64,000 bases of DNA from Lishizhenia tianjinensis (lineage in GTDB: Bacteria > Bacteroidota > Bacteroidia > Flavobacteriales_D > Crocinitomicaceae), in the NCBI RefSeq assembly GCF_900116425.1, contig NZ_FPAS01000001.1:806001-870000 (forward strand), read 5' to 3'. A program made the position numbers and the translations under genes. A model generated the notes under the pieces. That model worked only from the letters and a program-made list of their open reading frames with translations, was not told where the DNA came from and ran no database searches. Below are positions 3,937 to 55,860 of the stretch, in pieces; positions within the stretch are counted from its first letter, which is position 1, and the number at the start of each line of letters is the position of its first letter.

Positions 3937-4305
3937 ATGAAACTAATTTTAACAGTATTTACACTCCTATGTCTTTCATTGAATAGTCTATCACAAACCT
4001 GTGATGAATTAATGGAAACCGTTAAATCTAAAAGCTTTGGAACGACATATACTAGCTATACCAGTACTGCAATATCTAAAGTTACCTTTTATACTGTCTA
4101 CTTAGATTATTCTCTATATTACTTTGCCATTGTATGCTTCAAACCAAATGAATATTCATATGATTGTTCAGAATATATATACCAAGTAGCTTCCAATACT
4201 CAGACAAATTACGCTATGAACTATATGGAAAGTGCCGGTGAGGCATTTTGGGACTACATACAGCCCTATGCGGATGTATTGGAATGCTCACCAAGTTTTG
4301 AATAA
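3937..4305 (+). CDS. Secreted small protein with KTSC-like domain, 122 aa
   Basis: The ATG at 3937 gives an ideal signal peptide (MKLILTVFTLLCLSLNSLSQ); the upstream in-frame start at 3883 would bury it. After cleavage, residues ~40-110 show a pattern like the KTSC domain: S-x-A-I-S-K-V, then alternating hydrophobics with YYF, then Y-I-Y-Q-V and A-F-W-D-Y-I. KTSC is named after a lysyl-tRNA synthetase-associated domain and its function is unknown; a secreted version is somewhat unusual. The similarity is judged by eye. The gene stands alone. Confidence 0.55.
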   Translation: MKLILTVFTLLCLSLNSLSQTCDELMETVKSKSFGTTYTSYTSTAISKVTFYTVYLDYSLYYFAIVCFKPNEYSYDCSEYIYQVASNTQTNYAMNYMESAGEAFWDYIQPYADVLECSPSFE

Positions 4306-44470: not shown

Positions 44471-45784
44471 ATGAGGTTAGACCCTATCGACAAAATTTTA
44501 ATCATACCAGTAACCAAATTCATCAGTAACTCAACTACCAGTGGAATTTTGCTTTTTGCCTCCGCGGTAATTGCACTTATTCTAGCCAACTCCCCCATTC
44601 AAGAAGAATATCATCACTTTTGGGAACAAACCTTTACCATAGGCTTTGATCAATTCATCGTTTCTAAATCTTTGCACCACTGGATCAATGACGGGTTAAT
44701 GTCCATCTTCTTTTTTGTTGTAGGATTAGAACTTAAACGAGAAATAATGGGCGGTGAACTCTCTCGACCTAAAGATGCCATTTTACCCGTATTTGCAGGC
44801 TTGGGAGGTATGCTTGTTCCCGCTGCAATTTATTTAATGTTTAACTCCTCGGGGAACACGGCAGATGGATGGGGAATTCCTATGGCTACAGATATAGCGT
44901 TCGCCTTGGGAATACTCTACCTTTTAGGAGATAAAGTTCCGGTTTCACTGAAAGTATTTTTAACAGCCTTGGCCATTGCTGATGACTTGGGCGCTGTGCT
45001 TGTCATCGCTTTTTTCTACACTTCAGATATTTCTACGATGAGTCTATTGGCCGGAGGTATCTTCCTATTGATTTTATTCATAGCCAATTTAATGGGCGTT
45101 CGAAATACAGTATTTTACGGTATAGTAGGTATAGGTGGATTATGGTTAGCCTTTTTAATGTCTGGAATTCACGCTACCATTGCGGGAGTTTTGGCCGCCA
45201 TAACCATACCTGCCAAGGTTAAAATCCAAGATAAAAAGTACGTACAAAAAATGAATGCCCTCACCAACGAATTCGAAAATTCCACGCCGAACAATGTTTC
45301 CCTTATTACCTCAGATCAATTACACATTCTAGAAAAAATCAGGTTCTATTCTAAGGCAGCAATGACGCCTTTACAACGTCTAGAACATGCCATGCACCCT
45401 TTGGTAGCTTTCGTGATTATGCCCGTATTTGCTTTAGCCAACGCAGGTATTACCTTTTCAGATAACTTTCTAAGTGACTTAACGAGTACGGTAAGTTTAG
45501 GCGTCATTTTCGGTTTGGTATTCGGTAAGTTCCTAGGAATAGTTGTGATTTCAAAAATCTTGGTTAAGCTAGGTATTGCCGCTCTTCCCAAAGGTGTAAG
45601 TTGGCGACATTTATATGGTGCAGCTACCCTGGCGGGTGTTGGATTTACCATGTCTTTGTTTATAAGTGATTTAGCTTTTACCAATAAGGAGTATATTCTC
45701 CAGGCTAAAATTGGAGTATTTCTAGCTTCTTTAATTTGTGGAATTATAGGTTATTTCATTTTGATAAAGACGAAAAAAACATAA
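44471..45784 (+). CDS. nhaA: Na+/H+ antiporter NhaA, 437 aa
   Basis: NhaA-type antiporter with about 12 membrane helices. The ion-binding Asp pair lies in ALAIADDLGAVLVIAFFY near residue 175; FFFVVGLELKREIMGGEL near 80, ATDIAFALGILYLLG near 140 and AGVGFTMSLFISDLAF near 393 are family signatures. A ~45-residue hydrophilic loop (~255-300) is typical of Bacteroidota members. It exchanges sodium for protons in the inner membrane. Single gene, bounded by terminators at 44372 and 45810. Confidence 0.95.
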   Translation: MRLDPIDKILIIPVTKFISNSTTSGILLFASAVIALILANSPIQEEYHHFWEQTFTIGFDQFIVSKSLHHWINDGLMSIFFFVVGLELKREIMGGELSRPKDAILPVFAGLGGMLVPAAIYLMFNSSGNTADGWGIPMATDIAFALGILYLLGDKVPVSLKVFLTALAIADDLGAVLVIAFFYTSDISTMSLLAGGIFLLILFIANLMGVRNTVFYGIVGIGGLWLAFLMSGIHATIAGVLAAITIPAKVKIQDKKYVQKMNALTNEFENSTPNNVSLITSDQLHILEKIRFYSKAAMTPLQRLEHAMHPLVAFVIMPVFALANAGITFSDNFLSDLTSTVSLGVIFGLVFGKFLGIVVISKILVKLGIAALPKGVSWRHLYGAATLAGVGFTMSLFISDLAFTNKEYILQAKIGVFLASLICGIIGYFILIKTKKT

Positions 45785-45809
45785 AATAGCATAGTCCTTC
45801 TCACACTAA

Positions 45810-45837
45810 AAGTCTTCCCCCTATGGAAGACTTTTTT
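45810..45837 (+). terminator. Intrinsic terminator after nhaA
   Basis: AAGTCTTCC (45810-45818) pairs with GGAAGACTT (45825-45833), followed by TTTTG. It overlaps the start of a 103-codon reading frame, which argues against that frame being a gene. Confidence 0.88.
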
Positions 45838-46021
45838 GTTTTACTCAAAGGTTTAAAAGATGATTATCCTAGTGATTTAATAGGGTTTTATCATTCAGAC
45901 CAACTACTTCATAAAAAATTAACAAAAAAAATACACCACTCTACAAAGCCTATAAATCCTACTATTTTAATAGGATATATTGATTTCAAAGGCTTTGAAT
46001 TTAAAATATATTTAAAAACTA

Positions 46022-46054
46022 TTTGGAATCATCAAAAAAACTCTTCTATATTTG
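46022..46054 (+). promoter_or_regulatory. Promoter of the cys leader and operon
   Basis: TTTG (46022-46025) and a perfect TATATTTG (46047-46054) with a 21-base spacer. Predicted transcription start near 46061, about 23 bases before the first leader peptide. Confidence 0.7.
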
Positions 46055-46083
46055 CCCCAGTGAAAACAAATAACAAGAACAAT

Positions 46084-46134
46084 ATGTGTTGCTTGATGTG
46101 TATAGAAATGTACGCAAAGGGGAAAATTATATAG
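46084..46134 (+). CDS. Cysteine leader peptide 1, 16 aa
   Basis: Sequence MCCLMCIEMYAKGKII: three Cys codons among the first six. It starts about 23 bases after the predicted transcription start and ends 24 bases before an intrinsic terminator. Codons for Tyr-Ala-Lys-Gly contain GCAAAGG (46114-46120), which can pair with CCTTTGC (46163-46169), the 5' arm of that terminator. A ribosome stalled at the Cys codons would leave this segment free to block termination; one reaching the stop codon would cover it. This is the logic of amino-acid attenuation. Confidence 0.75.
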   Translation: MCCLMCIEMYAKGKII

Positions 46135-46158
46135 TGCTTTAAAGCCAATAAAAATTTG

Positions 46159-46191
46159 AACGCCTTTGCTCTTAGCAAGGGCGTTTTTTTT
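46159..46191 (+). terminator. Attenuator terminator 1
   Basis: AACGCCTTTGCT (46159-46170) pairs with AGCAAGGGCGTT (46174-46185) with one wobble/mismatch, followed by T8. It lies between the two leader peptides, with no other gene end before it, as expected of an attenuator. Confidence 0.88.
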
Positions 46192-46209
46192 GAACTGAGA
46201 ATTAAAAAA

Positions 46210-46290
46210 ATGAATACTACATACCAAATGTGTTGTTGTCTTATGGCAATGTGCTGCGCGCACATAATGGAATTGTATTACCCTAATTGA
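46210..46290 (+). CDS. Cysteine leader peptide 2, 26 aa
   Basis: The peptide has MCCCLMAMCCAHIM in its middle: five Cys codons in two runs. An alternative start is the ATG at 46228, right before the CCC run. Near its end, TGTATTACC (46274-46282) is perfectly complementary to GGTAATACA (46323-46331) in the loop of the next terminator, so it can act as a competing pairing partner when the ribosome stalls upstream at Cys codons. Five Met codons are also notable and might add sensitivity to methionine. Confidence 0.72.
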   Translation: MNTTYQMCCCLMAMCCAHIMELYYPN

Positions 46291-46311
46291 ACGATAATTA
46301 AACACGGTTTA

Positions 46312-46348
46312 AAAGTCCCTTTGGTAATACATCAAAGGGACTTTTTTT
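46312..46348 (+). terminator. Attenuator terminator 2
   Basis: AAAGTCCCTTTG (46312-46323) pairs perfectly with CAAAGGGACTTT (46333-46344), followed by T4 more. It ends 20 bases before the first structural gene of the cys operon. Confidence 0.9.
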
Positions 46349-46367
46349 ATTCAATACTCAGCATAAA

Positions 46368-46604
46368 ATGAACTTAAATACAAAAACAATGGAACAAACC
46401 CTTCCGAAAGAAGACATCAAAAGAAGCTTGGCAAAAACCATCAGCTGGCGCTTAGTAGGAACACTAGACACAGTACTCATCTCCTACCTACTCACAGGAA
46501 CCTTAGCCATTGCTTTTAGCATAGGCGCTATAGAACTGGTTACTAAAATGCTTTTGTACTTCTTTCATGAAAGAGCTTGGAACAACATAAAATGGGGAAA
46601 ATAA
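46368..46604 (+). CDS. DUF2061 small membrane protein, 78 aa
   Basis: DUF2061 pattern: KRSLAKTISWRLVGTLDTVLIS, then a hydrophobic second half (GTLAIAFSIGAIELVTKMLLYFFHERAW). Two membrane helices. Genes of this family are often in sulfate-assimilation operons of Bacteroidota and proteobacteria, which suggests a role in sulfate or sulfite handling, but none is established. First gene after the attenuators; a start at 46389 is also possible. cysH begins 2 bases after the stop. Confidence 0.85.
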   Translation: MNLNTKTMEQTLPKEDIKRSLAKTISWRLVGTLDTVLISYLLTGTLAIAFSIGAIELVTKMLLYFFHERAWNNIKWGK

Positions 46605-46606
46605 AA

Positions 46607-47215
46607 ATGAATCTTACAGCAATTAACAAAGAGCTTAGGGATAAGTCACCTAAGGAAATCGTACAATGGGCACTGTACGCAGCAAAACGCCCTGTGGTAA
46701 CAACCAACTTTAGACCTTATGAAGCAGCGATTCTACACGCCACCTCGCAGATAAAACAAGATTTAAAAATCATTTGGTGCGATACCGGGTACAACACTTC
46801 TTATACCTACAAACACGCAGAGGAACTCATTCATCAACTTGGGTTAAACATCCATCTCTATGTTCCCAAGCAAACCACTGCCCACAGAGATGTAGTACTT
46901 GGAATTCCAGGGTTGGATGATCCTAATCATGCCAAGTTTAGTGAACAAGTAAAGCTAGAACCCTTTAAACGTGCCATGGAAGAACATAAACCTGACGTGT
47001 GGTTTACCAATTTGCGCAAAGGACAAACAGCTTTGAGAGACACCTTAGACATCGTGAGTTTATCCGAAGATGGTGTATTAAAGGTGAGTCCCTTCTACCA
47101 TTGGTCAGATGAAGAATTAGACAGTTATCTCAAAGCACATAAACTTCCAAACGAAGAACGCTATTACGACCCAACCAAATTATTGAGTAACAGAGAATGT
47201 GGAATCCATAAATAA
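46607..47215 (+). CDS. cysH: Phosphoadenylyl-sulfate reductase (CysH), 202 aa
   Basis: PP-loop ATPase-like fold with IIWCDTGYNTSYTYKHAEEL in the middle, VWFTNLRKGQTALRDTLD, FYHWSDEELDSYLKAHKLP, and the C-terminal catalytic ECGIH. It reduces (P)APS to sulfite using thioredoxin. The paired CC and CxxC motifs that bind the [4Fe-4S] cluster of APS reductases are absent, which places it with the PAPS type, yet no APS kinase gene (cysC) is in this operon. Start at ATG 46607; the preceding in-frame ATG overlaps the DUF2061 gene. Second gene of the operon, 5 bases before cysD. Confidence 0.88.
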   Translation: MNLTAINKELRDKSPKEIVQWALYAAKRPVVTTNFRPYEAAILHATSQIKQDLKIIWCDTGYNTSYTYKHAEELIHQLGLNIHLYVPKQTTAHRDVVLGIPGLDDPNHAKFSEQVKLEPFKRAMEEHKPDVWFTNLRKGQTALRDTLDIVSLSEDGVLKVSPFYHWSDEELDSYLKAHKLPNEERYYDPTKLLSNRECGIHK

Positions 47216-47220
47216 ACAAC

Positions 47221-48123
47221 ATGAAAACAACATTAAGTATTAACCCTTTGGAAAATGAAGCCATCTACATCTTGCGAGAGGTAGCTGCACAATTTGAGCG
47301 ACCTGTACTACTTTTTTCTGGAGGAAAAGATTCTATCACCTTGGTGAGATTGGCACAAAAAGCCTTTTATCCAGCCAAGATACCTTTTCCTTTATTGCAT
47401 GTGGATACGGGACATAATTTCCCAGAAACTATTGCTTTCCGTGATGCATTGGTAGAGGAATTAGGATTAGAACTCATCGTGCGTAATGTACAAGACGCCA
47501 TAGATGAAGGAAAAGTAGTGGAAGAAAGTGGAAAGTATGCTTCACGTAATATACTACAAACCACTACCCTTTTAGATGCTATTGAAGAATTCAAATTCGA
47601 CGCTTGTATAGGAGGTGCTAGAAGAGACGAAGAAAAAGCGAGAGCGAAGGAACGAATTTTCTCTGTTCGTGATGATTTTGGTCAATGGGATGAAAAGAAC
47701 CAACGTCCGGAGTTATTTGATATGCTCAATGGACAAATAGAATTAGGACAAAACGTAAGAGTCTTCCCTATTTCTAACTGGACTGAATTAGATGTATGGT
47801 CATATATTCAAAAGGAAAAAATTGAAATTCCATCCATCTACTTTGCCCACAAGAGAAAGGTCTTTTTACGAGACGGTTTGATTTGGTCATTCGACGATGA
47901 CAAAGTATACAGAGACGAAGAAGAAATTGTAGAAGAACGCACAGTAAGATTCAGAACTGTGGGAGACATGAGCTGTACAGCGGCAGTATTGTCTGAGGCA
48001 GCTGATATAGACACTGTAGTTGAAGAAATCAGAGTTTCAACCATTTCTGAGCGAGGCGCCCGAATAGATGATAAACGCTCTGAGGCGGCCATGGAGAAAA
48101 GAAAACAACAAGGATATTTCTAA
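47221..48123 (+). CDS. cysD: Sulfate adenylyltransferase subunit 2 (CysD), 300 aa
   Basis: ATP-sulfurylase small subunit. PP-loop LLFSGGKDSITLVRLA near residue 28, LLHVDTGHNFPETIAFRD near 58, the CIGGARRDEEKARAKERIFS block near 131, and WTELDVWSYIQKEKIEIPSIYFAHKRK near 185. Forms APS from sulfate and ATP with the CysN GTPase encoded next. Length is normal. Confidence 0.96.
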   Translation: MKTTLSINPLENEAIYILREVAAQFERPVLLFSGGKDSITLVRLAQKAFYPAKIPFPLLHVDTGHNFPETIAFRDALVEELGLELIVRNVQDAIDEGKVVEESGKYASRNILQTTTLLDAIEEFKFDACIGGARRDEEKARAKERIFSVRDDFGQWDEKNQRPELFDMLNGQIELGQNVRVFPISNWTELDVWSYIQKEKIEIPSIYFAHKRKVFLRDGLIWSFDDDKVYRDEEEIVEERTVRFRTVGDMSCTAAVLSEAADIDTVVEEIRVSTISERGARIDDKRSEAAMEKRKQQGYF

Positions 48124-48142: not shown

Positions 48143-49393
48143 ATGGAAGTTTTAAAAATAGCTACAGCCGGTAGCGTAGATGATGGTAAAAGTACCCTCA
48201 TCGGAAGAATATTATACGATACACAATCGCTTACACTCGATAAGCTAGAAGCCATAGAAAGAACCAGTAAACAAAAGGGTTACGACTATTTGGATTTCTC
48301 ATTAGCAACGGATGGTTTGGTAGCCGAACGCGAGCAAGGAATTACTATAGATGTGGCACACATTTACTTTTCTACACCGAGTAAAAGCTACATTATTGCA
48401 GATACTCCTGGTCACGTAGAATACACCAGAAACATGGTTACTGGTGCTTCAACTTCTCAGGCATCCATCATACTTATAGATGCTAGAAAAGGGGTAACGG
48501 AACAAACTTACAGACACTTTTTCATCAATAATTTACTGCGTGTAAAGGATGTGGTGGTAGCCATTAACAAGATGGACTTGGTAGATTATTCTGAAGAGGT
48601 TTTCAACGAAATCAAACGTAATTTTGAAGCATTGAATGCCAAAAGCAATTACACAGAACAAAACATAAGCTTTATACCCGTCAGTGCTTTACACGGAGAC
48701 AATGTGGTAAATGGTTCTACACAAATGCTTTGGTATACAGGAGGTAGTGTTTTGGATCATTTTGAATCACTTACGCAAGAAAAAATCTACAACACCGGTA
48801 CTCCACGCTTCCCTGTGCAAATGGTCATTCGACCAAAAACAGAAGAATTCCATGATTTCAGGGCTTTTGCAGGAAAAGTATATGGTGGGGATTTACATCG
48901 CGGTGATGAGGTAATTGCCCTGCCTTCTCAACAAAAGTCAAGAATTAAAGATATCTATTTCTACAACGAGAAATATGATACCGCTGCAAGAAGGTCATCT
49001 GTGTCTATAACGCTGGAAGATGAAATCAATGTGAGTCGTGGTGACATGTTGGTAAAAGCCAATGAAATCCCAACTATATCTAAAGAAGTTGAGGCTATCG
49101 TGTGTTGGATGGACAACAAGAGTTTAGCTCTTCGCAATAAGTATACTCTGCAACACGGTGTAAACAAAGTATTGGCTGTGGTTACCGAAGTTCAGCACAA
49201 AATAAATACGGACTTCAGCGGAATAGATGAAAATGTGGAGCAAGTCAACATGAATGACATCACAAAAATTAAACTGAAATTGAATAAAGCCATATACAGT
49301 GATCCCTTTGAGGAACACCGCACCAACGGTTCTTTTATCCTCATAGATAATACAACAAATCATACGGTTGGTGTTGGCTTTATACAGGCCTAA
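48143..49393 (+). CDS. cysN: Sulfate adenylyltransferase subunit 1 (CysN, GTPase), 416 aa
   Basis: Translation-factor-type GTPase: P-loop TAGSVDDGKSTLIGRIL near residue 7, switch region REQGITIDVAHIYF near 68, DTPGHVEYTRNMVTGAS near 86, and NKMDL near 142. The beta-barrel domains follow (RPKTEEFHDFRAFAGKV). It lacks the C-terminal APS-kinase domain seen in CysNC fusions. GTP hydrolysis drives APS synthesis by CysD. Start at ATG 48143, 19 bases after cysD. Confidence 0.95.
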   Translation: MEVLKIATAGSVDDGKSTLIGRILYDTQSLTLDKLEAIERTSKQKGYDYLDFSLATDGLVAEREQGITIDVAHIYFSTPSKSYIIADTPGHVEYTRNMVTGASTSQASIILIDARKGVTEQTYRHFFINNLLRVKDVVVAINKMDLVDYSEEVFNEIKRNFEALNAKSNYTEQNISFIPVSALHGDNVVNGSTQMLWYTGGSVLDHFESLTQEKIYNTGTPRFPVQMVIRPKTEEFHDFRAFAGKVYGGDLHRGDEVIALPSQQKSRIKDIYFYNEKYDTAARRSSVSITLEDEINVSRGDMLVKANEIPTISKEVEAIVCWMDNKSLALRNKYTLQHGVNKVLAVVTEVQHKINTDFSGIDENVEQVNMNDITKIKLKLNKAIYSDPFEEHRTNGSFILIDNTTNHTVGVGFIQA

Positions 49394-49403
49394 GAAAATA
49401 GAG

Positions 49404-51491
49404 ATGCAAAGTTTTAGAACAGAAATAGAAAACCCACTAGTTGAGCAAGATATAATTGAGTTAGCCACTAAAATTGAACAATTCAAACACGGTAAAATTG
49501 ACGAGGAAAAATTTAGAAGTCTGCGCTTAGCCCGAGGAATTTACGGTCAACGTCAACCGGGTGTACAAATGATACGCATAAAGCTTCCTTATGGTCAACT
49601 TACAAGCGCTCAACTTCGAAGAATTGCCGATGTATCTGATGAATACTCGAGAGGACGATTGCACATTACAACACGTCAAGACATCCAAATTCATCACGTA
49701 GCTTTAGATAGAACCCCAGAATTATGGGCAGAGTTGGAAAAAGATGATATTACCCTTAGAGAAGCATGTGGAAACACAGTAAGAAATATTACAGCTTCAG
49801 AATTGACAGGTTTAGATCCTAAGGAAGCTTTTGATGTGGCACCTTACGCCGAAGCTATTTTCAAATACTTCTTGCGCAATCCAATTGGGCAGGAAATGGG
49901 ACGAAAGTTTAAGGTCTCCTTCTCTTCTTCGGATGAAGATACTGGTTTGTCTTACATGCACGACTTAGGTTTCATCGCTAAAAAGAATGGTGAAACAAGA
50001 GGTTTTAAAGTGATGATAGGCGGTGGTTTGGGATCACAACCCAGACATGCAGATGTTTTGTACGATTTTCTTCCTACAGACCAAATCATTCCGTTAATGG
50101 AAGGAGTTGTTAGGATATTTGACAGACACGGAGAACGAAAAAGTAGAGCAAAGGCACGGTTAAAGTTTTTAATCAAAGATTTGGGATTAGAGGCCTTTAT
50201 TCAATTAGTAGAAGAAGAACAAAAGGCACTTCCTTTTCACAACTTTCCTATCGTTGTTGAAGGTTTACCTGATTTGAAGGTGACTAAGGTTGATTTTCCA
50301 AAAGTTGAAATCGGAAACATTGATCACTTTCAAGCATGGAAGGAAAGTAATGTAATTCAACAAAAACAAGATGGTTTTTACACCATAGGTTTAAAGGTTC
50401 ACTTGGGAGATTTTTATACGGATCAAGCCAGAAAATTGGCCGATTTAGCCGAAGATTATGCTGCAGGACAATTGCGCTTGAGTTTGCGTCAAAACTTATT
50501 AATTCCTTTTGTAGCCGAGGAAGGATTGGCTTTTTTCTACTCAAAATTAAAAGAGATGAGATTGGCTGATGTTGGTTACAATAAAGTGGTAGACATCACT
50601 GCTTGTCCGGGAACCGACACGTGTAACTTGGGAATTGCTAGTAGCACAGGTATCGCTACAGAACTAGAACGCGTCTTATATGCTGAATTCGATGAATTGA
50701 TAAAAACTACGGATTTGGTCATTAAAATTAGCGGATGTATGAATGCATGCGGTCAACACAGCATGGCCAACATAGGTTTCCAAGGCATGTCTATAAAAAC
50801 AAAAGACAAGTTACACGCTCCTGCCCTACAAGTATTACTCGGTGGTGGAAACTTAGGAGATCGCAAAGCAACTTTTGCAGATAAGGTGATAAAAATCCCT
50901 AGTAAAAGAGGTCCAGAAGCCTTGCGTAGAATTTTGTTGGATTATAAGGCAAATGGCCAGGGAAAAAAGTTTGCTGAATACTATGCCTTAAAGGAACAGA
51001 AATACTTCTACGATTTATTAAAGGATTTAGCACAAACAGACAATTTAATTGCAGAAGATTTCTTGGATTGGGGAAGCAATGAAAAATACGTTCAAGCCAT
51101 AGGTATAGGAGAATGTGCCGGTGTTGTTATTGATTTAATTGCAACGCTTTTTCTAGAAAGTGAAGAAAAGATTAGTGCAGGAGAAAAAGCTTTAAAAGAA
51201 GCCAAATATGCAGATGCAATTTATCATGCTTACAGTGCCTTGTTGAATTCAGCTAAAGCAATTTTATTGGCTGAGGGTAAAAAAACCAATGCACAAAGTT
51301 CTATTGTTACTGGCTTTGATGATTTTATCAATGAAACGGACGCAATTTCGCTAAAGCAAGACTTTGCAACCCTTGTGTATCAAATTAAAGAAAACGCTCC
51401 TGAAAAGGAATTTGCAGAACACTATTTACAAAACGCTGTCGACTTCTTAGAACTAGTTCGCTCTTATCATGAAAAGAAGAAAACAAAATGA
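49404..51491 (+). CDS. Siroheme-dependent (ferredoxin-type) sulfite reductase fused to a HEPN domain, 695 aa
   Basis: Nitrite/sulfite reductase repeats (residues ~1-560): GIYGQRQPGVQMIRIKLPYG, GRLHITTRQDIQIHHV, and the [4Fe-4S]/siroheme ligands ACPGTDTCNLG and SGCMNACGQHSM (Cys near 401, 407, 444, 448; C-x5-C and C-x3-C). Reduces sulfite to sulfide with six electrons. The last ~125 residues (ALKEAKYADAIYHAYSALLNSAKAIL) look like a HEPN domain, absent from classical sulfite reductases. Electron supply probably comes from the ferredoxin reductase and ferredoxin encoded downstream. Start at ATG 49404. Confidence 0.92.
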   Translation: MQSFRTEIENPLVEQDIIELATKIEQFKHGKIDEEKFRSLRLARGIYGQRQPGVQMIRIKLPYGQLTSAQLRRIADVSDEYSRGRLHITTRQDIQIHHVALDRTPELWAELEKDDITLREACGNTVRNITASELTGLDPKEAFDVAPYAEAIFKYFLRNPIGQEMGRKFKVSFSSSDEDTGLSYMHDLGFIAKKNGETRGFKVMIGGGLGSQPRHADVLYDFLPTDQIIPLMEGVVRIFDRHGERKSRAKARLKFLIKDLGLEAFIQLVEEEQKALPFHNFPIVVEGLPDLKVTKVDFPKVEIGNIDHFQAWKESNVIQQKQDGFYTIGLKVHLGDFYTDQARKLADLAEDYAAGQLRLSLRQNLLIPFVAEEGLAFFYSKLKEMRLADVGYNKVVDITACPGTDTCNLGIASSTGIATELERVLYAEFDELIKTTDLVIKISGCMNACGQHSMANIGFQGMSIKTKDKLHAPALQVLLGGGNLGDRKATFADKVIKIPSKRGPEALRRILLDYKANGQGKKFAEYYALKEQKYFYDLLKDLAQTDNLIAEDFLDWGSNEKYVQAIGIGECAGVVIDLIATLFLESEEKISAGEKALKEAKYADAIYHAYSALLNSAKAILLAEGKKTNAQSSIVTGFDDFINETDAISLKQDFATLVYQIKENAPEKEFAEHYLQNAVDFLELVRSYHEKKKTK

Positions 51492-51503
51492 AAATAATGA
51501 ATA

Positions 51504-52271
51504 ATGAAGACTCCGAAATTGACTGTTGTTGGTGCAGGTCCGGGTGACCCTCGTTTACTCACCCTAAAAGCCATAGATGCACTCAAAAATGCCGATGTTG
51601 TTTTATACGACGCATTGGTAAATGAATCTTTATTGACCTATGCTGAGCACGCCGCTGAAATCGTTTTCGTTGGAAAACGCAAAGGATATGCACGCTACTC
51701 TCAGGATGAAATCAACGAAATGATTGTCCAAAAGGCCTATACGCATGGACACGTTGTTCGTTTGAAAGGTGGGGATCCCTTTGTCTTTGGGAGAGGTACA
51801 GAAGAACTAGTGTACGCCAGTTTATACAATTTGGAAACCGAAAGTGTACCCGGTATTTCTTCTGCCTTGGCCGTTGCAAGCGGACAAAACATCCCCCTTA
51901 CACTACGGGGAAATGCCGAGAGTTTTTGGGTGATTACAGGAACGACGAAAAACAAAAAACTATCTGACGACGTTGCACTTGCTGCCAGATCTACTGCTAC
52001 TATAGTAATTCTCATGGGCATGTCGCACCTACCAGAAATTGTTCAAATTTTTGAAAAGGTCGGTAAATCAGAGCTTCCTGTTGCCATCATCCAAAACGGC
52101 ACAACCCCTCATGAAAAAATTGGAGTGGGAAGGGTGAAAAATATAATCGAAGTTGTTCGCAACAATAAGCTAACCAACCCCGCAATCATCGTTTTGGGTG
52201 AAGTAGTAAATCAACGCGAACGCATATTACAAATTCAGGCAGAACATGCCTTTAACAGCTTGATAGCATGA
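51504..52271 (+). CDS. cobA: Uroporphyrinogen-III C-methyltransferase (CobA), 255 aa
   Basis: SAM-dependent tetrapyrrole methylase: VVGAGPGDPRLLTLKAI near residue 7, VRLKGGDPFVFGRGTEEL near 84, VPGISSALAVASGQNIPLTLRG near 115 and AIIQNGTTPHEKI near 194. Makes precorrin-2, the first step to siroheme for the sulfite reductase. Stop and the next start overlap by 4 bases (ATGA). Confidence 0.95.
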   Translation: MKTPKLTVVGAGPGDPRLLTLKAIDALKNADVVLYDALVNESLLTYAEHAAEIVFVGKRKGYARYSQDEINEMIVQKAYTHGHVVRLKGGDPFVFGRGTEELVYASLYNLETESVPGISSALAVASGQNIPLTLRGNAESFWVITGTTKNKKLSDDVALAARSTATIVILMGMSHLPEIVQIFEKVGKSELPVAIIQNGTTPHEKIGVGRVKNIIEVVRNNKLTNPAIIVLGEVVNQRERILQIQAEHAFNSLIA

Positions 52272-52852
52272 GAAAAGAAACCAACGAACTCTTCCCTATT
52301 TTCCTGAAAGCTGAAGAGTTAAACATACTGATCGTAGGAGGAGGAAATGTTGCCTTGGAAAAACTGAGTTTTTTACTCAAGTCGAGTCCAAAAGCTAAGG
52401 TTAAATTATTAGCTAAGAATTACCTAGCAGAAGTGGAAGAATTGGGCTTGCGACATAACATTCCCCTTCATATTGGCGCTTATCATTCTAATGTACTTCA
52501 AAACATTCAAATCGTAATTGCAGCTACCAATAACCAAATGGTGAATCAAGGTATTTATGATGATTGTAAGTCCAAGCAAATCTTAGTAAACGTGGCAGAT
52601 ACCCCCTACCTGTGTGATTACTATTTAGGAGGAATTGTTTCCAAAGGGAATTTAAAACTAGGGATCTCCACTAATGGAAAATCTCCAACCCTTGCCAAAC
52701 GTTTGCGCGAATTCTTCGAGGATTTTCTTCCAGAAGAGATGGACGAATTGATTTTGAATTTAAACACATATAGAAAAGAGTTGAAAGGTGATTTCAGCCA
52801 AAAAGTGAAACAATTAAACGAAGTAACTGCCGACTTACTTCACAAAAAATAA
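52268..52852 (+). CDS. Precorrin-2 dehydrogenase / sirohydrochlorin ferrochelatase, CysG N-terminal type, 194 aa
   Basis: Rossmann motif ILIVGGGNVALEKLSFLLK near residue 21 followed by VIAATNNQMVNQGI near 87, VNVADTPYLCDYYLGGIV near 108 and LKLGISTNGKSPTLAKRLR near 129, as in Met8p/CysG(N). Oxidises precorrin-2 to sirohydrochlorin and inserts iron. Completes siroheme synthesis together with the preceding gene. Confidence 0.92.
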   Translation: MRKETNELFPIFLKAEELNILIVGGGNVALEKLSFLLKSSPKAKVKLLAKNYLAEVEELGLRHNIPLHIGAYHSNVLQNIQIVIAATNNQMVNQGIYDDCKSKQILVNVADTPYLCDYYLGGIVSKGNLKLGISTNGKSPTLAKRLREFFEDFLPEEMDELILNLNTYRKELKGDFSQKVKQLNEVTADLLHKK

Positions 52853-52856
52853 TAAG

Positions 52857-53903
52857 ATGATAGAAACAGATATTTTAATTATAGGTGCAGGTCCAACAGG
52901 TTTATTTGCGGTTTTTGAAGCTGGATTATTGCGAATGAAATGTCATCTGATTGATGCTTTGCCCCAACCAGGCGGACAATGTTCTGAGTTATATCCAAAG
53001 AAACCGATTTATGACATTCCAGGTTCTCCCGAAATACTTGCCGGAGATTTAACCAAGAATTTATTAAAGCAAAGTGAACAGTTCCAACCCGGCTTTACTT
53101 TAGGAGAACGCGCAGATACGATTGAAAAATTAGAGGATGGAAGTTTTATAGTAAGGACCAACAAAGGAACTGAACACAAGGCTAAAGTTATTGCTATCGC
53201 TGGTGGATTGGGTTCTTTTGAGCCGCGTAAACCACCTTTAGAAGGCATAGAAAAATACGAAGATAAGGGGGTGAACTATTTCATTAAAAATCCTGAGATC
53301 TACAGAGATAAAAAAGTAGTAATCGCCGGAGGTGGAGATTCTGCCTTAGACTGGAGTATTTACTTAACGGATATTGCCAAGGAGGTAAAACTTATACATC
53401 GTCGCAATGAATTTAGAGGAGCGTTGGATTCTGTAGAAAAACTTCGAGAATTAAAAAATGAAGGTAAAATTGAAATCATCACTCCGGCAGAGGTTGATGC
53501 CTTACATGGGGCTGAAAAACTTGAAGGAATAACCATTTCTAGCAAGGGTGAAGAAAGAGAAATAGTAACCGATCATTTCATTCCATTGTTTGGGTTATCG
53601 CCAAAATTAGGGCCTATCGCCAACTGGGGCTTAGAGATAGAAAACAACGCCATAAAGGTGAATACGTTTGACTATCAAACCAATGTTCCTGGAATTTACG
53701 CCATTGGAGATGTCAATACATATCCAGGAAAATTGAAGTTAATTCTTTGTGGTTTTCACGAAGCTACATTGATGTGTCAATCGGCCTTTCAACACATCAA
53801 CCCAGGAAAAAGAAATGTACTTAAATACACCACAGTAAGTGGAATTGACGGTTTTGATGGTTCAAGAAAAGAAGCCGAAAAAGCCGTTGTAGAAGCGATA
53901 TAA
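52857..53903 (+). CDS. Ferredoxin-NADP+ reductase, thioredoxin-reductase-like type, 348 aa
   Basis: FAD motif IIGAGPTGLFAVFEAGL near residue 7, the DALPQPGGQCSELYPKKPIYDIPG block near 37 (no redox CxxC, unlike thioredoxin reductase), NADPH motif VVIAGGGDSALDWSIYL near 156 and PGIYAIGDVNTYPGKLKLI near 278. These features mark the TrxR-like FNR class. It lies one base before the ferredoxin gene, so it most likely reduces that ferredoxin with NADPH to drive sulfite reduction (inference from order). Confidence 0.93.
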   Translation: MIETDILIIGAGPTGLFAVFEAGLLRMKCHLIDALPQPGGQCSELYPKKPIYDIPGSPEILAGDLTKNLLKQSEQFQPGFTLGERADTIEKLEDGSFIVRTNKGTEHKAKVIAIAGGLGSFEPRKPPLEGIEKYEDKGVNYFIKNPEIYRDKKVVIAGGGDSALDWSIYLTDIAKEVKLIHRRNEFRGALDSVEKLRELKNEGKIEIITPAEVDALHGAEKLEGITISSKGEEREIVTDHFIPLFGLSPKLGPIANWGLEIENNAIKVNTFDYQTNVPGIYAIGDVNTYPGKLKLILCGFHEATLMCQSAFQHINPGKRNVLKYTTVSGIDGFDGSRKEAEKAVVEAI

Positions 53904-53904
53904 A

Positions 53905-54225
53905 ATGGAAGATATCACAATTACAATTAAAGATCGTGATGGAAAAGCTCACGATCTACTCGCCCCTACTGATATGGCGATGAACATTATGGAGCTTTGT
54001 AAATCTTATGCGCTACCCGTTGAAGGAACGTGTGGAGGTATGGCCCTCTGCGCATCCTGTCAATGTTATGTGTTGTCAGATCACACATTGCCTCCGTCTA
54101 CAGACGACGAGGAAGCTATGCTCTCAGAAGCATTTTATGTAAAAGAAAATAGTCGCTTAGGTTGTCAACTCCCCATTACCAAAGATATGGATGGATTAGT
54201 TCTGGAATTGGCACCAGAATATTAA
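53905..54225 (+). CDS. [2Fe-2S] ferredoxin, 106 aa
   Basis: Adrenodoxin/plant-like ferredoxin with cluster ligands in EGTCGGMALCASCQCYVL (C-x5-C-x2-C near residues 45-53) and the fourth Cys in RLGCQLPI near residue 87. The electron carrier between the preceding reductase and the sulfite reductase. cysE starts 5 bases after its stop. Confidence 0.93.
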   Translation: MEDITITIKDRDGKAHDLLAPTDMAMNIMELCKSYALPVEGTCGGMALCASCQCYVLSDHTLPPSTDDEEAMLSEAFYVKENSRLGCQLPITKDMDGLVLELAPEY

Positions 54226-54230
54226 AGAAA

Positions 54231-54980
54231 ATGAAAACAGAAAAATTAATATCCTACGATACATCATTGATCAAACTGGTCAATCTATTTACAGACTCCT
54301 TGTATGAAAACATCTTTGTTTGGCCCCAAGGAGCAACACATTACTCAGCCAGTGAGGCTTTGTTTCACGCCATAAATGAACGCACGAAAACAAGTAATAG
54401 TCTTGCGCTTTGGGAGGACTTATCTTCGCAATTCACCTCCATTCGCAAAGATTTAGACCAAGATGCCCTAGAATTTGAAAAGACAGATCCTGCCGTTCAT
54501 TCTTTGGAAGAGGTTTATTTAGCTTACCCGGGCTTCTACGCCATAGTGGTGTATCGTTTGGCACATAAACTTTATGAAATGGAGCTCTACACTTTTGCCC
54601 GAATGATGAGCGAATGTGCCCATAGAACCACAGGTATAGACATACATCCTGGAGCGCAAATTGGTGTTCCTTTTTATATAGATCACGGAACAGGAGTGGT
54701 GATTGGACAAACTACTATCATTAAAAATCGTGTAAAAATATACCAAGGAGTAACCCTGGGTGGACTACAGGTAAAAAAGCAACTTGCTAAAACCAAACGT
54801 CACCCGACGGTAGAAGATAATGTGACCATTTATGCGAATGCCACTATACTTGGAGGAGAGGTTGTTATTGGTGAAAATTCTATTATCGGAGCCAATGTAT
54901 GGATCAGTGAATCTGTTCCTAAAAATTCCATAGTACAATACAAATCAGAGATAAAAATTCATAAAAATGAAAGAATATAG
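54231..54980 (+). CDS. cysE: Serine O-acetyltransferase (CysE/EpsC-like), 249 aa
   Basis: An N-terminal helical domain with FYAIVVYRLAHKLYE precedes a left-handed beta-helix: GIDIHPGAQIGVPFYIDHGTGVVIGQTTIIKNRVKIYQGVTLGG-type hexapeptide repeats (residues ~135-235). The DHGTGVVIG motif is a serine acetyltransferase signature. Makes O-acetylserine from serine and acetyl-CoA. The C-terminus is short, without the long Ile-ending tail. Start at ATG 54231; the cysteine synthase gene overlaps its end by 14 bases. Confidence 0.92.
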   Translation: MKTEKLISYDTSLIKLVNLFTDSLYENIFVWPQGATHYSASEALFHAINERTKTSNSLALWEDLSSQFTSIRKDLDQDALEFEKTDPAVHSLEEVYLAYPGFYAIVVYRLAHKLYEMELYTFARMMSECAHRTTGIDIHPGAQIGVPFYIDHGTGVVIGQTTIIKNRVKIYQGVTLGGLQVKKQLAKTKRHPTVEDNVTIYANATILGGEVVIGENSIIGANVWISESVPKNSIVQYKSEIKIHKNERI

Positions 54981-55860
54981 CAACATCCTGGACCAAATTG
55001 GAAATACTCCCTTGGTAGAATTGCAACATTTACAAAAGAACAAAAACGTAAAAGTGTTGGTGAAATTAGAGGGAAACAACCCTGGAGGAAGTGTTAAAGA
55101 TAGAGCTGCTTATAACATGATTGCTGAAGCATTGAAACGGGGTGATATCAAACAAGGTGATATTTTGGTGGAAGCTACCAGTGGAAACACAGGTATTGCC
55201 CTAGCTTTTATTGCGCAACTCATGGGCTTAAACATGAAATTGGTGATGCCAGAAAATGCCACACAAGAACGCATTTCTACCATGCGTTTCTATGGTGCTG
55301 AACTTATACTTACCCCACAAGCTGAAGGTATTGAAGGTTCTCGAGATTTAGCCTTAAAGCTAAGGGATGAAAAAGGTTATCATATACTCAATCAATTTGG
55401 AAATGATGACAACTGGAAGGCACATTATAAAACAACTGGACCAGAAATTTGGAAAGACACAGACGGTGAAATCACCCATTTTGTTTCTGCCATGGGAACA
55501 ACAGGTACCGTTATGGGTGTTTCTACTTACTTAAAAGAACAAAACCCAACTATTCAAATTATTGGTACAGAACCTACGGAAGGTTCGTCCATACCTGGAA
55601 TCCGTAAATGGGAACCCTCTTATACTCCCCTTTTCTTTGACCCGGAACGCTTGGACGAAGTAATTCCGGTAAGTGAATTAGTAGCTAAAAACACTGTGAA
55701 ATTACTTGCACAAAAAGAAGGTTTGTTTGTAGGTATAAGTAGCGGAGGCGCGGTAGCGACTGCACTTCAAGTAGCTTCAAAACTTGAGCAGGGTGTGGTT
55801 GTAGCCATCATTTGTGATCGTGGAGATAGGTATTTGTCTTCTGACTTTATGAAAATATAG
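54967..55860 (+). CDS. cysM: O-acetylserine sulfhydrylase (cysteine synthase, CysM-like), 297 aa
   Basis: Fold-type II PLP enzyme. PLP-binding Lys in NNPGGSVKDRAAYNMI near residue 44, SGNTGIALAFIA near 71, the phosphate-cup GTTGTVMGVSTYL near 178 and the PLP-ring Ser in VGISSGGAVATAL near 260. Converts O-acetylserine and sulfide to cysteine. At under 300 residues it is nearer CysM than CysK in size. Last gene of the cys operon; terminator at 55878. Confidence 0.92.
   Translation: MKEYSNILDQIGNTPLVELQHLQKNKNVKVLVKLEGNNPGGSVKDRAAYNMIAEALKRGDIKQGDILVEATSGNTGIALAFIAQLMGLNMKLVMPENATQERISTMRFYGAELILTPQAEGIEGSRDLALKLRDEKGYHILNQFGNDDNWKAHYKTTGPEIWKDTDGEITHFVSAMGTTGTVMGVSTYLKEQNPTIQIIGTEPTEGSSIPGIRKWEPSYTPLFFDPERLDEVIPVSELVAKNTVKLLAQKEGLFVGISSGGAVATALQVASKLEQGVVVAIICDRGDRYLSSDFMKI

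Follow-up and report, generated by a model that had tools for sequence, protein, structure and literature searches.

The closest described relatives of the locus discussed here are the classical attenuators of the trp, his and leu type, in which a leader peptide rich in codons for the product amino acid is followed by mutually exclusive antiterminator and terminator structures, and the position of the ribosome decides between them. For cysteine, a 2020 report by Canestrari is said, to judge by its title, to concern cysteine-responsive poly-Cys leaderless short ORFs of mycobacteria. PMC13236596 terms the mycobacterial poly-Cys control translational attenuation, and PMC1262725 records Cys leaders upstream of cys operons in Actinobacteria, for which no conserved terminator hairpins were found. 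Two leader ORFs acting as attenuators within one leader RNA are reported for Salmonella mgtCBR, with ATP and proline as the signals (PMC3641672). As of 2010, according to PMC2965389, leader-peptide systems were known, ermC apart, only in Proteobacteria and Actinobacteria, before the Firmicutes case of those authors themselves. For the Bacteroidota there are hints in two sources, namely indications that amino-acid operons of Flavobacterium psychrophilum are preceded by leader-peptide attenuators (PMC9723704) and leader-like short ORFs in long 5' regions in Bacteroides thetaiotaomicron (PMC7366714).

The window, by which we mean the whole 64-kb stretch of DNA that was analysed (positions 806001-870000 of contig C2 in a genome of 3.56 Mb), has two complete leader-terminator units in series behind one promoter and ahead of an operon for cysteine synthesis. 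A sequence-only reading had proposed two attenuators in series, and this remains the best reading, supported by sequence anatomy, a fold model and comparison with relatives. There are no expression data, and we put at about 0.85 the probability that the sulfate-to-cysteine operon is controlled by transcription attenuators of the ribosome-mediated type, two complete ones arranged in series. The promoter, both leaders, both terminators and the operon were confirmed base for base where that reading had placed them, and the elements upstream of the first gene are as follows:

46022-46054, + strand: promoter, comprising TTTG (46022-46025), a 21-nt spacer and TATATTTG (46047-46054); from the sequence, by fit to TAnnTTTG
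46084-46134, + strand: leader peptide 1, MCCLMCIEMYAKGKII, 16 codons, Cys at codons 2, 3 and 6; from the sequence, binomial p for Cys 1.4e-4
46114-46120, + strand: putative antiterminator segment 1, GCAAAGG, complementary to CCTTTGC at 46163-46169; fold model, shuffle p 0.01
46158-46190, + strand: intrinsic terminator 1, a stem at 46158-46186 (13 pairs) and a U-run; terminator scan, dG -18.3
46210-46290, + strand: leader peptide 2, MNTTYQMCCCLMAMCCAHIMELYYPN, 26 codons, Cys at codons 8, 9, 10, 15 and 16; from the sequence, binomial p for Cys 7e-7
46274-46282, + strand: putative antiterminator segment 2, TGTATTACC, complementary to GGTAATACA at 46323-46331; fold model, shuffle p 0.036
46311-46350, + strand: intrinsic terminator 2, a stem at 46311-46345 (15 pairs) and a U-run; terminator scan, dG -19.0

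The promoter had been called perfect. That description holds for the Bacteroidota box, TATATTTG being a match to TAnnTTTG, which PMC9723704 gives for a flavobacterium as its -7 box, or sigma-A motif. The promoter reaches only 9/12 in a generic sigma-70 scan, and we therefore limit the word to the Bacteroidota box. Transcription is inferred to start at about 46060. Among the leaders compared in this study, the same box lies 12-43 nt upstream of 16 of 18 front leaders, against a background expectation of 0.04 per 70 nt; of 12 leaders that come second or lie within an operon, three (L288, L295 and L297) have it as well. In the window (70 nt upstream searched) and in L269, a second tandem locus, the second leader has no TAnnTTTG box ahead of it. 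A 103-codon ORF (45823-46134) in frame with leader 1 begins inside the terminator of the upstream gene and crosses the promoter; it is probably spurious.

Cysteine makes up 8 of the 40 non-start residues of the two leaders (3 + 5; joint binomial p 3e-10), against a background of 0.7% Cys, taken over 3777 residues of proteins encoded nearby. In a scan of 5641 short ORFs on both strands of about 464 kb of the same genome, window included, being Cys/Met-rich and followed by a terminator was a combination met by just three, the two leaders and one ORF with a weak hairpin, and four others were equally Cys/Met-rich under a stricter cut without a terminator. Leaders for other amino acids, sought in the same 464 kb, gave six matches, none of them convincing. 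Between 45700 and 46700 there are 5 terminator-like sites, compared with 0.7 +/- 0.9 in shuffles; one belongs to the upstream gene and one overlaps terminator 1. Rfam 15 has no family at gathering score in window positions 45000-47500, where its 10 weak matches all stand at about half that score or less, and none in four relative loci.

How would a ribosome on a leader choose between antiterminator and terminator? The two complementarities between leader and terminator that had been pointed out, GCAAAGG with CCTTTGC and TGTATTACC with GGTAATACA, are exact, and we folded the RNA from the leading edge of the ribosome to the end of the terminator loop, i.e., before the 3' arm of the terminator is made. 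In this model the antiterminator of leader 1 (GCAAAGG/CCTTTGC plus inner pairs) is predicted at about -14 kcal/mol for all A-sites up to codon 7, is weaker at codon 8 and has vanished once the ribosome stands at the stop codon, and that of leader 2 is predicted at -10.6 kcal/mol up to A-site codon 18, at -6.6 at codon 19 and is absent at the stop. Since the last Cys codons are codons 6 and 16, antitermination should end just past the last Cys. The terminator is the thermodynamically favoured fold once its 3' arm is present, so that the stall model depends on the order of synthesis, as in classical attenuators. The proposed distinction between an arm design and a loop design is softer than was claimed: the leader 2 antiterminator pairs not only with the loop but with the upper end of the 5' arm, its 3' side being GGTAATACA and three further bases of that arm. 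Against shuffled spacers the pairing of leader 1 reaches p 0.01, and that of leader 2 reaches 0.036 with the full loop and about 0.1 with the loop trimmed by one or two bases. As each pairing in the window is, taken alone, only modestly significant, the case rests on the comparison with relatives.

We envisage the following course of events, in which leader translation, stalling, the ligand sensed (charged tRNA-Cys, possibly tRNA-Met) and the response of termination to the amino acid are all inferred. Transcription from the single promoter near 46050 would yield the leader RNA, and a ribosome would trail RNA polymerase through leader 1. With Cys-tRNA plentiful, it would reach the stop codon and cover GCAAAGG, terminator 1 would form and transcription would end. 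With Cys-tRNA scarce, it would stall at Cys codon 2, 3 or 6 and leave the antiterminator segment ahead free to pair with the nascent 5' arm of the terminator, and the polymerase would continue. Leader 2 and terminator 2 would repeat the same choice, so that both units would have to be passed before the operon is transcribed.

The window shares with the classical attenuators, as PMC1262725 and PMC2965389 present them, a leader of product codons, an antiterminator and a terminator that exclude each other, and a logic based on ribosome position. It has a short ORF rich in product codons after a promoter, the leaders encoding the amino acid that the operon makes; it has an intrinsic terminator before the first gene; and, by computation, it has an antiterminator which cannot coexist with the terminator and which becomes free only when a ribosome stalls, a property to which one related locus, L223, is an exception at the stop codon. 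It differs from the classical cases in the amino acid (cysteine, with Met), in having two units in series and in belonging to the Bacteroidota, and a need for a protector hairpin has not been shown. With the mycobacterial and actinobacterial Cys leaders, so far as their sources could be consulted, it has in common a Cys-codon leader ahead of a cys operon; here, in contrast, each leader has an intrinsic terminator and an antiterminator, and the mycobacterial pattern of a leaderless Cys ORF without intrinsic terminator, again as partly accessible sources describe it, is not met, terminators being present and leader 1 lying about 24 nt past the inferred start. Like Salmonella mgtCBR, as far as its source was available, the window has two leader attenuators in one RNA, but both of its leaders carry the same codon type and each has its own intrinsic terminator. 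There are no response data, but different signals for the two window leaders look unlikely because both are Cys/Met-rich. The accessible parts of the F. psychrophilum and B. thetaiotaomicron sources (PMC9723704, PMC7366714) contain neither a cysteine case nor a tandem.

The operon itself had been placed directly after the second terminator. That placement stands, DUF2061 beginning 22 nt past the second stem, and the operon extends further than had been described, comprising eleven genes from DUF2061 to 55860, all on the + strand, that lead from sulfate to cysteine:

46368-46604, + strand: first operon gene, a DUF2061 small membrane protein (PF09834, E 3e-24)
46607-47215, + strand: cysH-like PAPS/APS reductase (PF01507; NCBIfam cysH-type models below cut-off)
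47221-48123, + strand: cysD, sulfate adenylyltransferase small subunit (TIGR02039 over cut-off)
48143-49393, + strand: cysN, sulfate adenylyltransferase large subunit (TIGR02034 over cut-off)
49401-51491, + strand: sulfite/nitrite reductase-type hemoprotein, SiR (PF01077, PF03460; NirA and SiR models below cut-off)
51504-52271, + strand: uroporphyrinogen-III methyltransferase, siroheme (TIGR01469 over cut-off)
52268-52852, + strand: CysG N-terminal-like dehydrogenase, siroheme (TIGR01470 over cut-off)
52857-54225, + strand: thioredoxin-reductase-like flavoprotein and 2Fe-2S ferredoxin-like protein (PF07992, PF00111; thioredoxin-reductase models below cut-off)
54231-54980, + strand: cysE-like hexapeptide transferase (PF00132; name inferred from fold and place)
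54967-55860, + strand: cysK/M-like PLP enzyme, end of the operon (PF00291; name inferred from fold and place)

The thioredoxin-reductase-like and ferredoxin-like proteins are inferred to be possible electron donors of SiR, and the C terminus of the SiR-type protein (49401-51491) matches HEPN (PF05168) weakly, below the cut-off. The window CysD (47221-48120) is 82-89% identical to homologues in three families, f65, f17 and f27, and 76% identical to the best homologue from its own family among the homologues drawn, a pattern that might point to a horizontal origin of the operon. The Rrf2 motif was found in 18 of 29 DUF2061 loci and in 55 of 80 CysH loci of named genomes, and not in the window. 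A single Rrf2-family gene was detected in the genome, L329 (G000:C2:114113-114511), about 740 kb from the sulfate operon; it carries the motif, PCVSLNYYE...C, seen in the copy adjoining the sulfate operon in those 18 of 29 relatives.

Are the leaders conserved where this operon has relatives? The sequence-only reading had held that an absence of Cys codons from related operons would refute it, and the comparison, which draws on sequence alone, did not do so. At the orthologous position conservation failed, no Cys/Met-rich leader being found before DUF2061 (0 of 29 loci) or before CysH at the level of the order (0 of 29); at other genes of the pathway it held, with leaders in 19 of 29 SiR loci and 17 of 100 CysD loci. 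The 29 CysD homologues nearest in sequence to that of the window had no leader within 1.5-kb flanks. The genus is represented by one genome in the comparison set, and the tandem could not be compared with a congener.

In the family of the window (f1), the 19 SiR loci have their leader on the sense strand, 16 of them with a simple terminator, against two on the antisense strand, neither with a terminator. Thirteen of these leaders lie directly before SiR, a place that the window could not offer, since its SiR begins almost directly after cysN and leaves no space for a leader of its own; the other six stand ahead of an aldo/keto-reductase gene, some 1 kb upstream of SiR (the single such gene tested has PF00248). 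In genus g10 (L290, L292, L293, L302, L306 and L307) the putative attenuator precedes the aldo/keto-reductase gene and SiR, and in the three of these loci that were read (L292, L293 and L307) an Rrf2-type gene lies directly upstream of it, so that both types of control may coexist there. The family appears to include Fluviicola sp. XM-24bin1 (Crocinitomicaceae at NCBI), as leader L078 is identical to L284.

A class-wide CysD search matched 227 of 395 genomes; of about 160 places listed, 100 were examined, besides 30 with 1.5-kb flanks. The 17 loci with a leader within 1.2 kb of cysD consist of 15 with Cys>=2 and Cys+Met>=5 and two (L174 and L238) admitted by the terminator criterion, and L217, L228, L232 and L259, in which such ORFs lie only at 2.8-3.6 kb from cysD, were treated as background. 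Under the Cys>=2 and Cys+Met>=5 thresholds this set contains 22 sense short ORFs in 19 of 100 loci against 3 antisense in 3, and none in reversed sequence; leaders with a terminator number 9 sense, 0 antisense and 0 in reversed sequence; and a criterion of Cys only, at >=3 in 12 codons together with a terminator, gives 12 sense and 1 antisense. Eight of the 17 cysD-adjacent leaders pass the simple terminator scan, and a hairpin was found for all the others except L262. Fifteen stand directly before an APS-kinase gene, cysC (motif in 15 of 15; PF01583 in the five tested), and two before cysH (PF01507). In L262 (G774, 4097-4260) a Cys leader, MQFTTTIKFLRMLCFNKCCCC, lacks a terminator, and a stretch of 13 bases over its Cys codons (TTAACAAGTGTTG) can pair without mismatch with the region where the next gene, cysH, starts, a length reached by 1 of 2000 shuffles; the arrangement resembles a form of the switch that would act on translation.

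The 80 CysH loci of named genomes gave a different kind of evidence. No leader with a terminator was found before cysH in these 80 loci, and leaders occur between cysN and SiR in L062, L078 and L107 (uncultured Kordia), i.e., in 3 of the 63 loci in which the SiR start could be located. Cys/Met-rich ORFs were not enriched in the 80 loci (5 sense, 9 antisense), reversed sequence gave 2 with a terminator where real sequence gave 3, and with Cys alone it gave 6 against 2. Since these counts match the controls, the evidence in this set is the place before SiR and not the number. L002/L056 (MCCLYQKK...) was set aside as a leader for want of a terminator.

Over all sets together, we regard it as a well-supported prediction that the window element is one member of a wider class of Cys/Met-rich leader attenuators, which in several Bacteroidia families stand before cysC, cysH or SiR. 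The double arrangement had been thought unusual; it is indeed rare but not unique, for among the loci examined a second case was found in L269 (genome G596, family f65), where a promoter box is followed by MKIQNNNMMMCMCC..., a terminator, ...ACMMMMCCM..., a second terminator and cysH. The tandem thus occurs in two families, and six further CysH loci of the family of L269 had no leader. We infer that two termination steps would multiply the control.

The leader sets were chosen by peptide, place and terminator, and pairing played no part in the choice. In a set of 22 leaders, which leaves out L262 (no terminator), the antiterminator energy is better than that of 95% of shuffled spacers in 17 (Fisher p 4e-18, or 6e-17 without the window); those that miss p 0.05 are leader 2 of the window (loop trimmed), L174, L181, L194 and L255. 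In a set of 16 mutually divergent leaders, which omits near copies (L078/L284, L285, L290, L298-L300, L302 and L306) and most of the cysC group, the same is true of 12, the other four (L288, L292, L293 and L307) missing p 0.05. In this second set the mean pairing is -11.0 kcal/mol with the leader's own terminator arm against -6.2 with foreign arms, and 0 of 200,000 partner permutations equalled the cognate pairing, although only 7 of the 16 spacers pair better with their own arm than with any of the others. With G-U pairs allowed, the examples include, beside GCAAAGG/CCTTTGC in the window, GAGGGGTT/AACTCCTC and CAAGAGGC/GCCTCTTG in L269, AGAAGGC/GCCTTCT in L062, CAAAAGGA/TCCTTTTG in L107 and GAAGGAT/ATCCTTC in L297. 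With the ribosome placed at the stop codon, the pairing falls to -3 kcal/mol or weaker in all 16 divergent leaders; outside this set, about -3.5 kcal/mol would be left in L202, L206 and L216, and in L223 the antiterminator would remain unmasked at -10.6 kcal/mol. Segment and arm are thus seen to keep their pairing while both change, as a conserved switch predicts.

Is cysteine alone the signal? Met is enriched in the leaders too, and the signal may therefore be the sulfur amino acids rather than cysteine alone: in this variant of the attenuator reading a shortage of Cys or of Met, which is made from Cys, would be sensed, and the Met codons would be regulatory. In the window Met accounts for 6 of 40 non-start residues (p 1.3e-4), and in 18 leaders selected for Cys alone, which include the two of the window and about three likely chance peptides, it accounts for 49 of 405 (12%), as against 132 of 6499 (2%) in the 248 Cys-rich short ORFs that served as controls (p 1e-20); this comparison preceded the orientation of all loci by strand, which should dilute the difference and not create it. 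Runs such as MMCCMMCC, MMMCMCC and CMMMMCCM recur across different families. That many leaders are related, however, means that the p value overstates their independence, the final Met codons of the two window leaders, 9 and 20, are beyond the limit for antiterminator formation, and the additional ATGs could act as internal starts instead. We consider the variant possible, although we would place it a little short of even odds; the Met codons might sense Met-tRNA, supply spare starts or set pausing.

That a nascent Cys/Met-rich peptide, or else free thiol, metal or redox state, rather than uncharged tRNA stalls the ribosome is improbable in our judgement. Cys-rich nascent chains could bind metal or oxidise, and the downstream RNA logic would be identical, but the positions and spacing of Cys vary among the leaders without any fixed arrest motif to be seen, and plain codon starvation accounts for the link to the operon. 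We give still less credence to the idea that the ORFs encode real small metal- or redox-binding proteins whose short mRNAs end at ordinary terminators: short Cys-rich proteins exist and some leaders have CC or CxC patterns, yet beyond their Cys/Met runs the peptides vary widely while hairpin and antiterminator co-vary, two units stand behind one promoter, and where they lie follows where cysC, cysH and SiR begin. Mere chance, with Cys-codon short ORFs lying beside unrelated terminators, could draw on the window shuffle p of 0.01-0.04 and on the reversed sequences that matched real counts in the 80 CysH loci, but is scarcely credible in the face of two such units in tandem ahead of a cysteine operon, the sense-strand bias, the lack of any antisense match with terminator in two locus sets (A and B) and the partner permutation test.

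Two attenuators in series thus remain our preferred explanation. In the literature searched, which did not cover subscription papers, an attenuator of the Cys or Cys/Met type was not seen for the Bacteroidota, in keeping with the earlier statement that no description for the phylum was known. A tandem variant of classical attenuation and a class of Cys/Met attenuators in several Bacteroidia families are thus well-supported predictions, and within that search the class was nowhere described. More speculatively, and as a conjecture that we hold to be rather less probable than not, an undescribed class in the Bacteroidota may read Cys and Met jointly, through the charging of tRNA-Cys and tRNA-Met, may have moved among positions before cysC, cysH and SiR, and may have been stacked in at least two lineages as a steeper, two-checkpoint gate. 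Leader-peptide attenuation in the Bacteroidota has so far only been hinted at in the searched literature, and the comparative case made here, which extends over several families, provides a defined set of genes for testing it. It also predicts that cysteine attenuation through intrinsic termination exists outside the Actinobacteria. Finally, nature supplies single as well as tandem versions of the predicted element, and the effect of stacking on gain and leakiness would be directly measurable.
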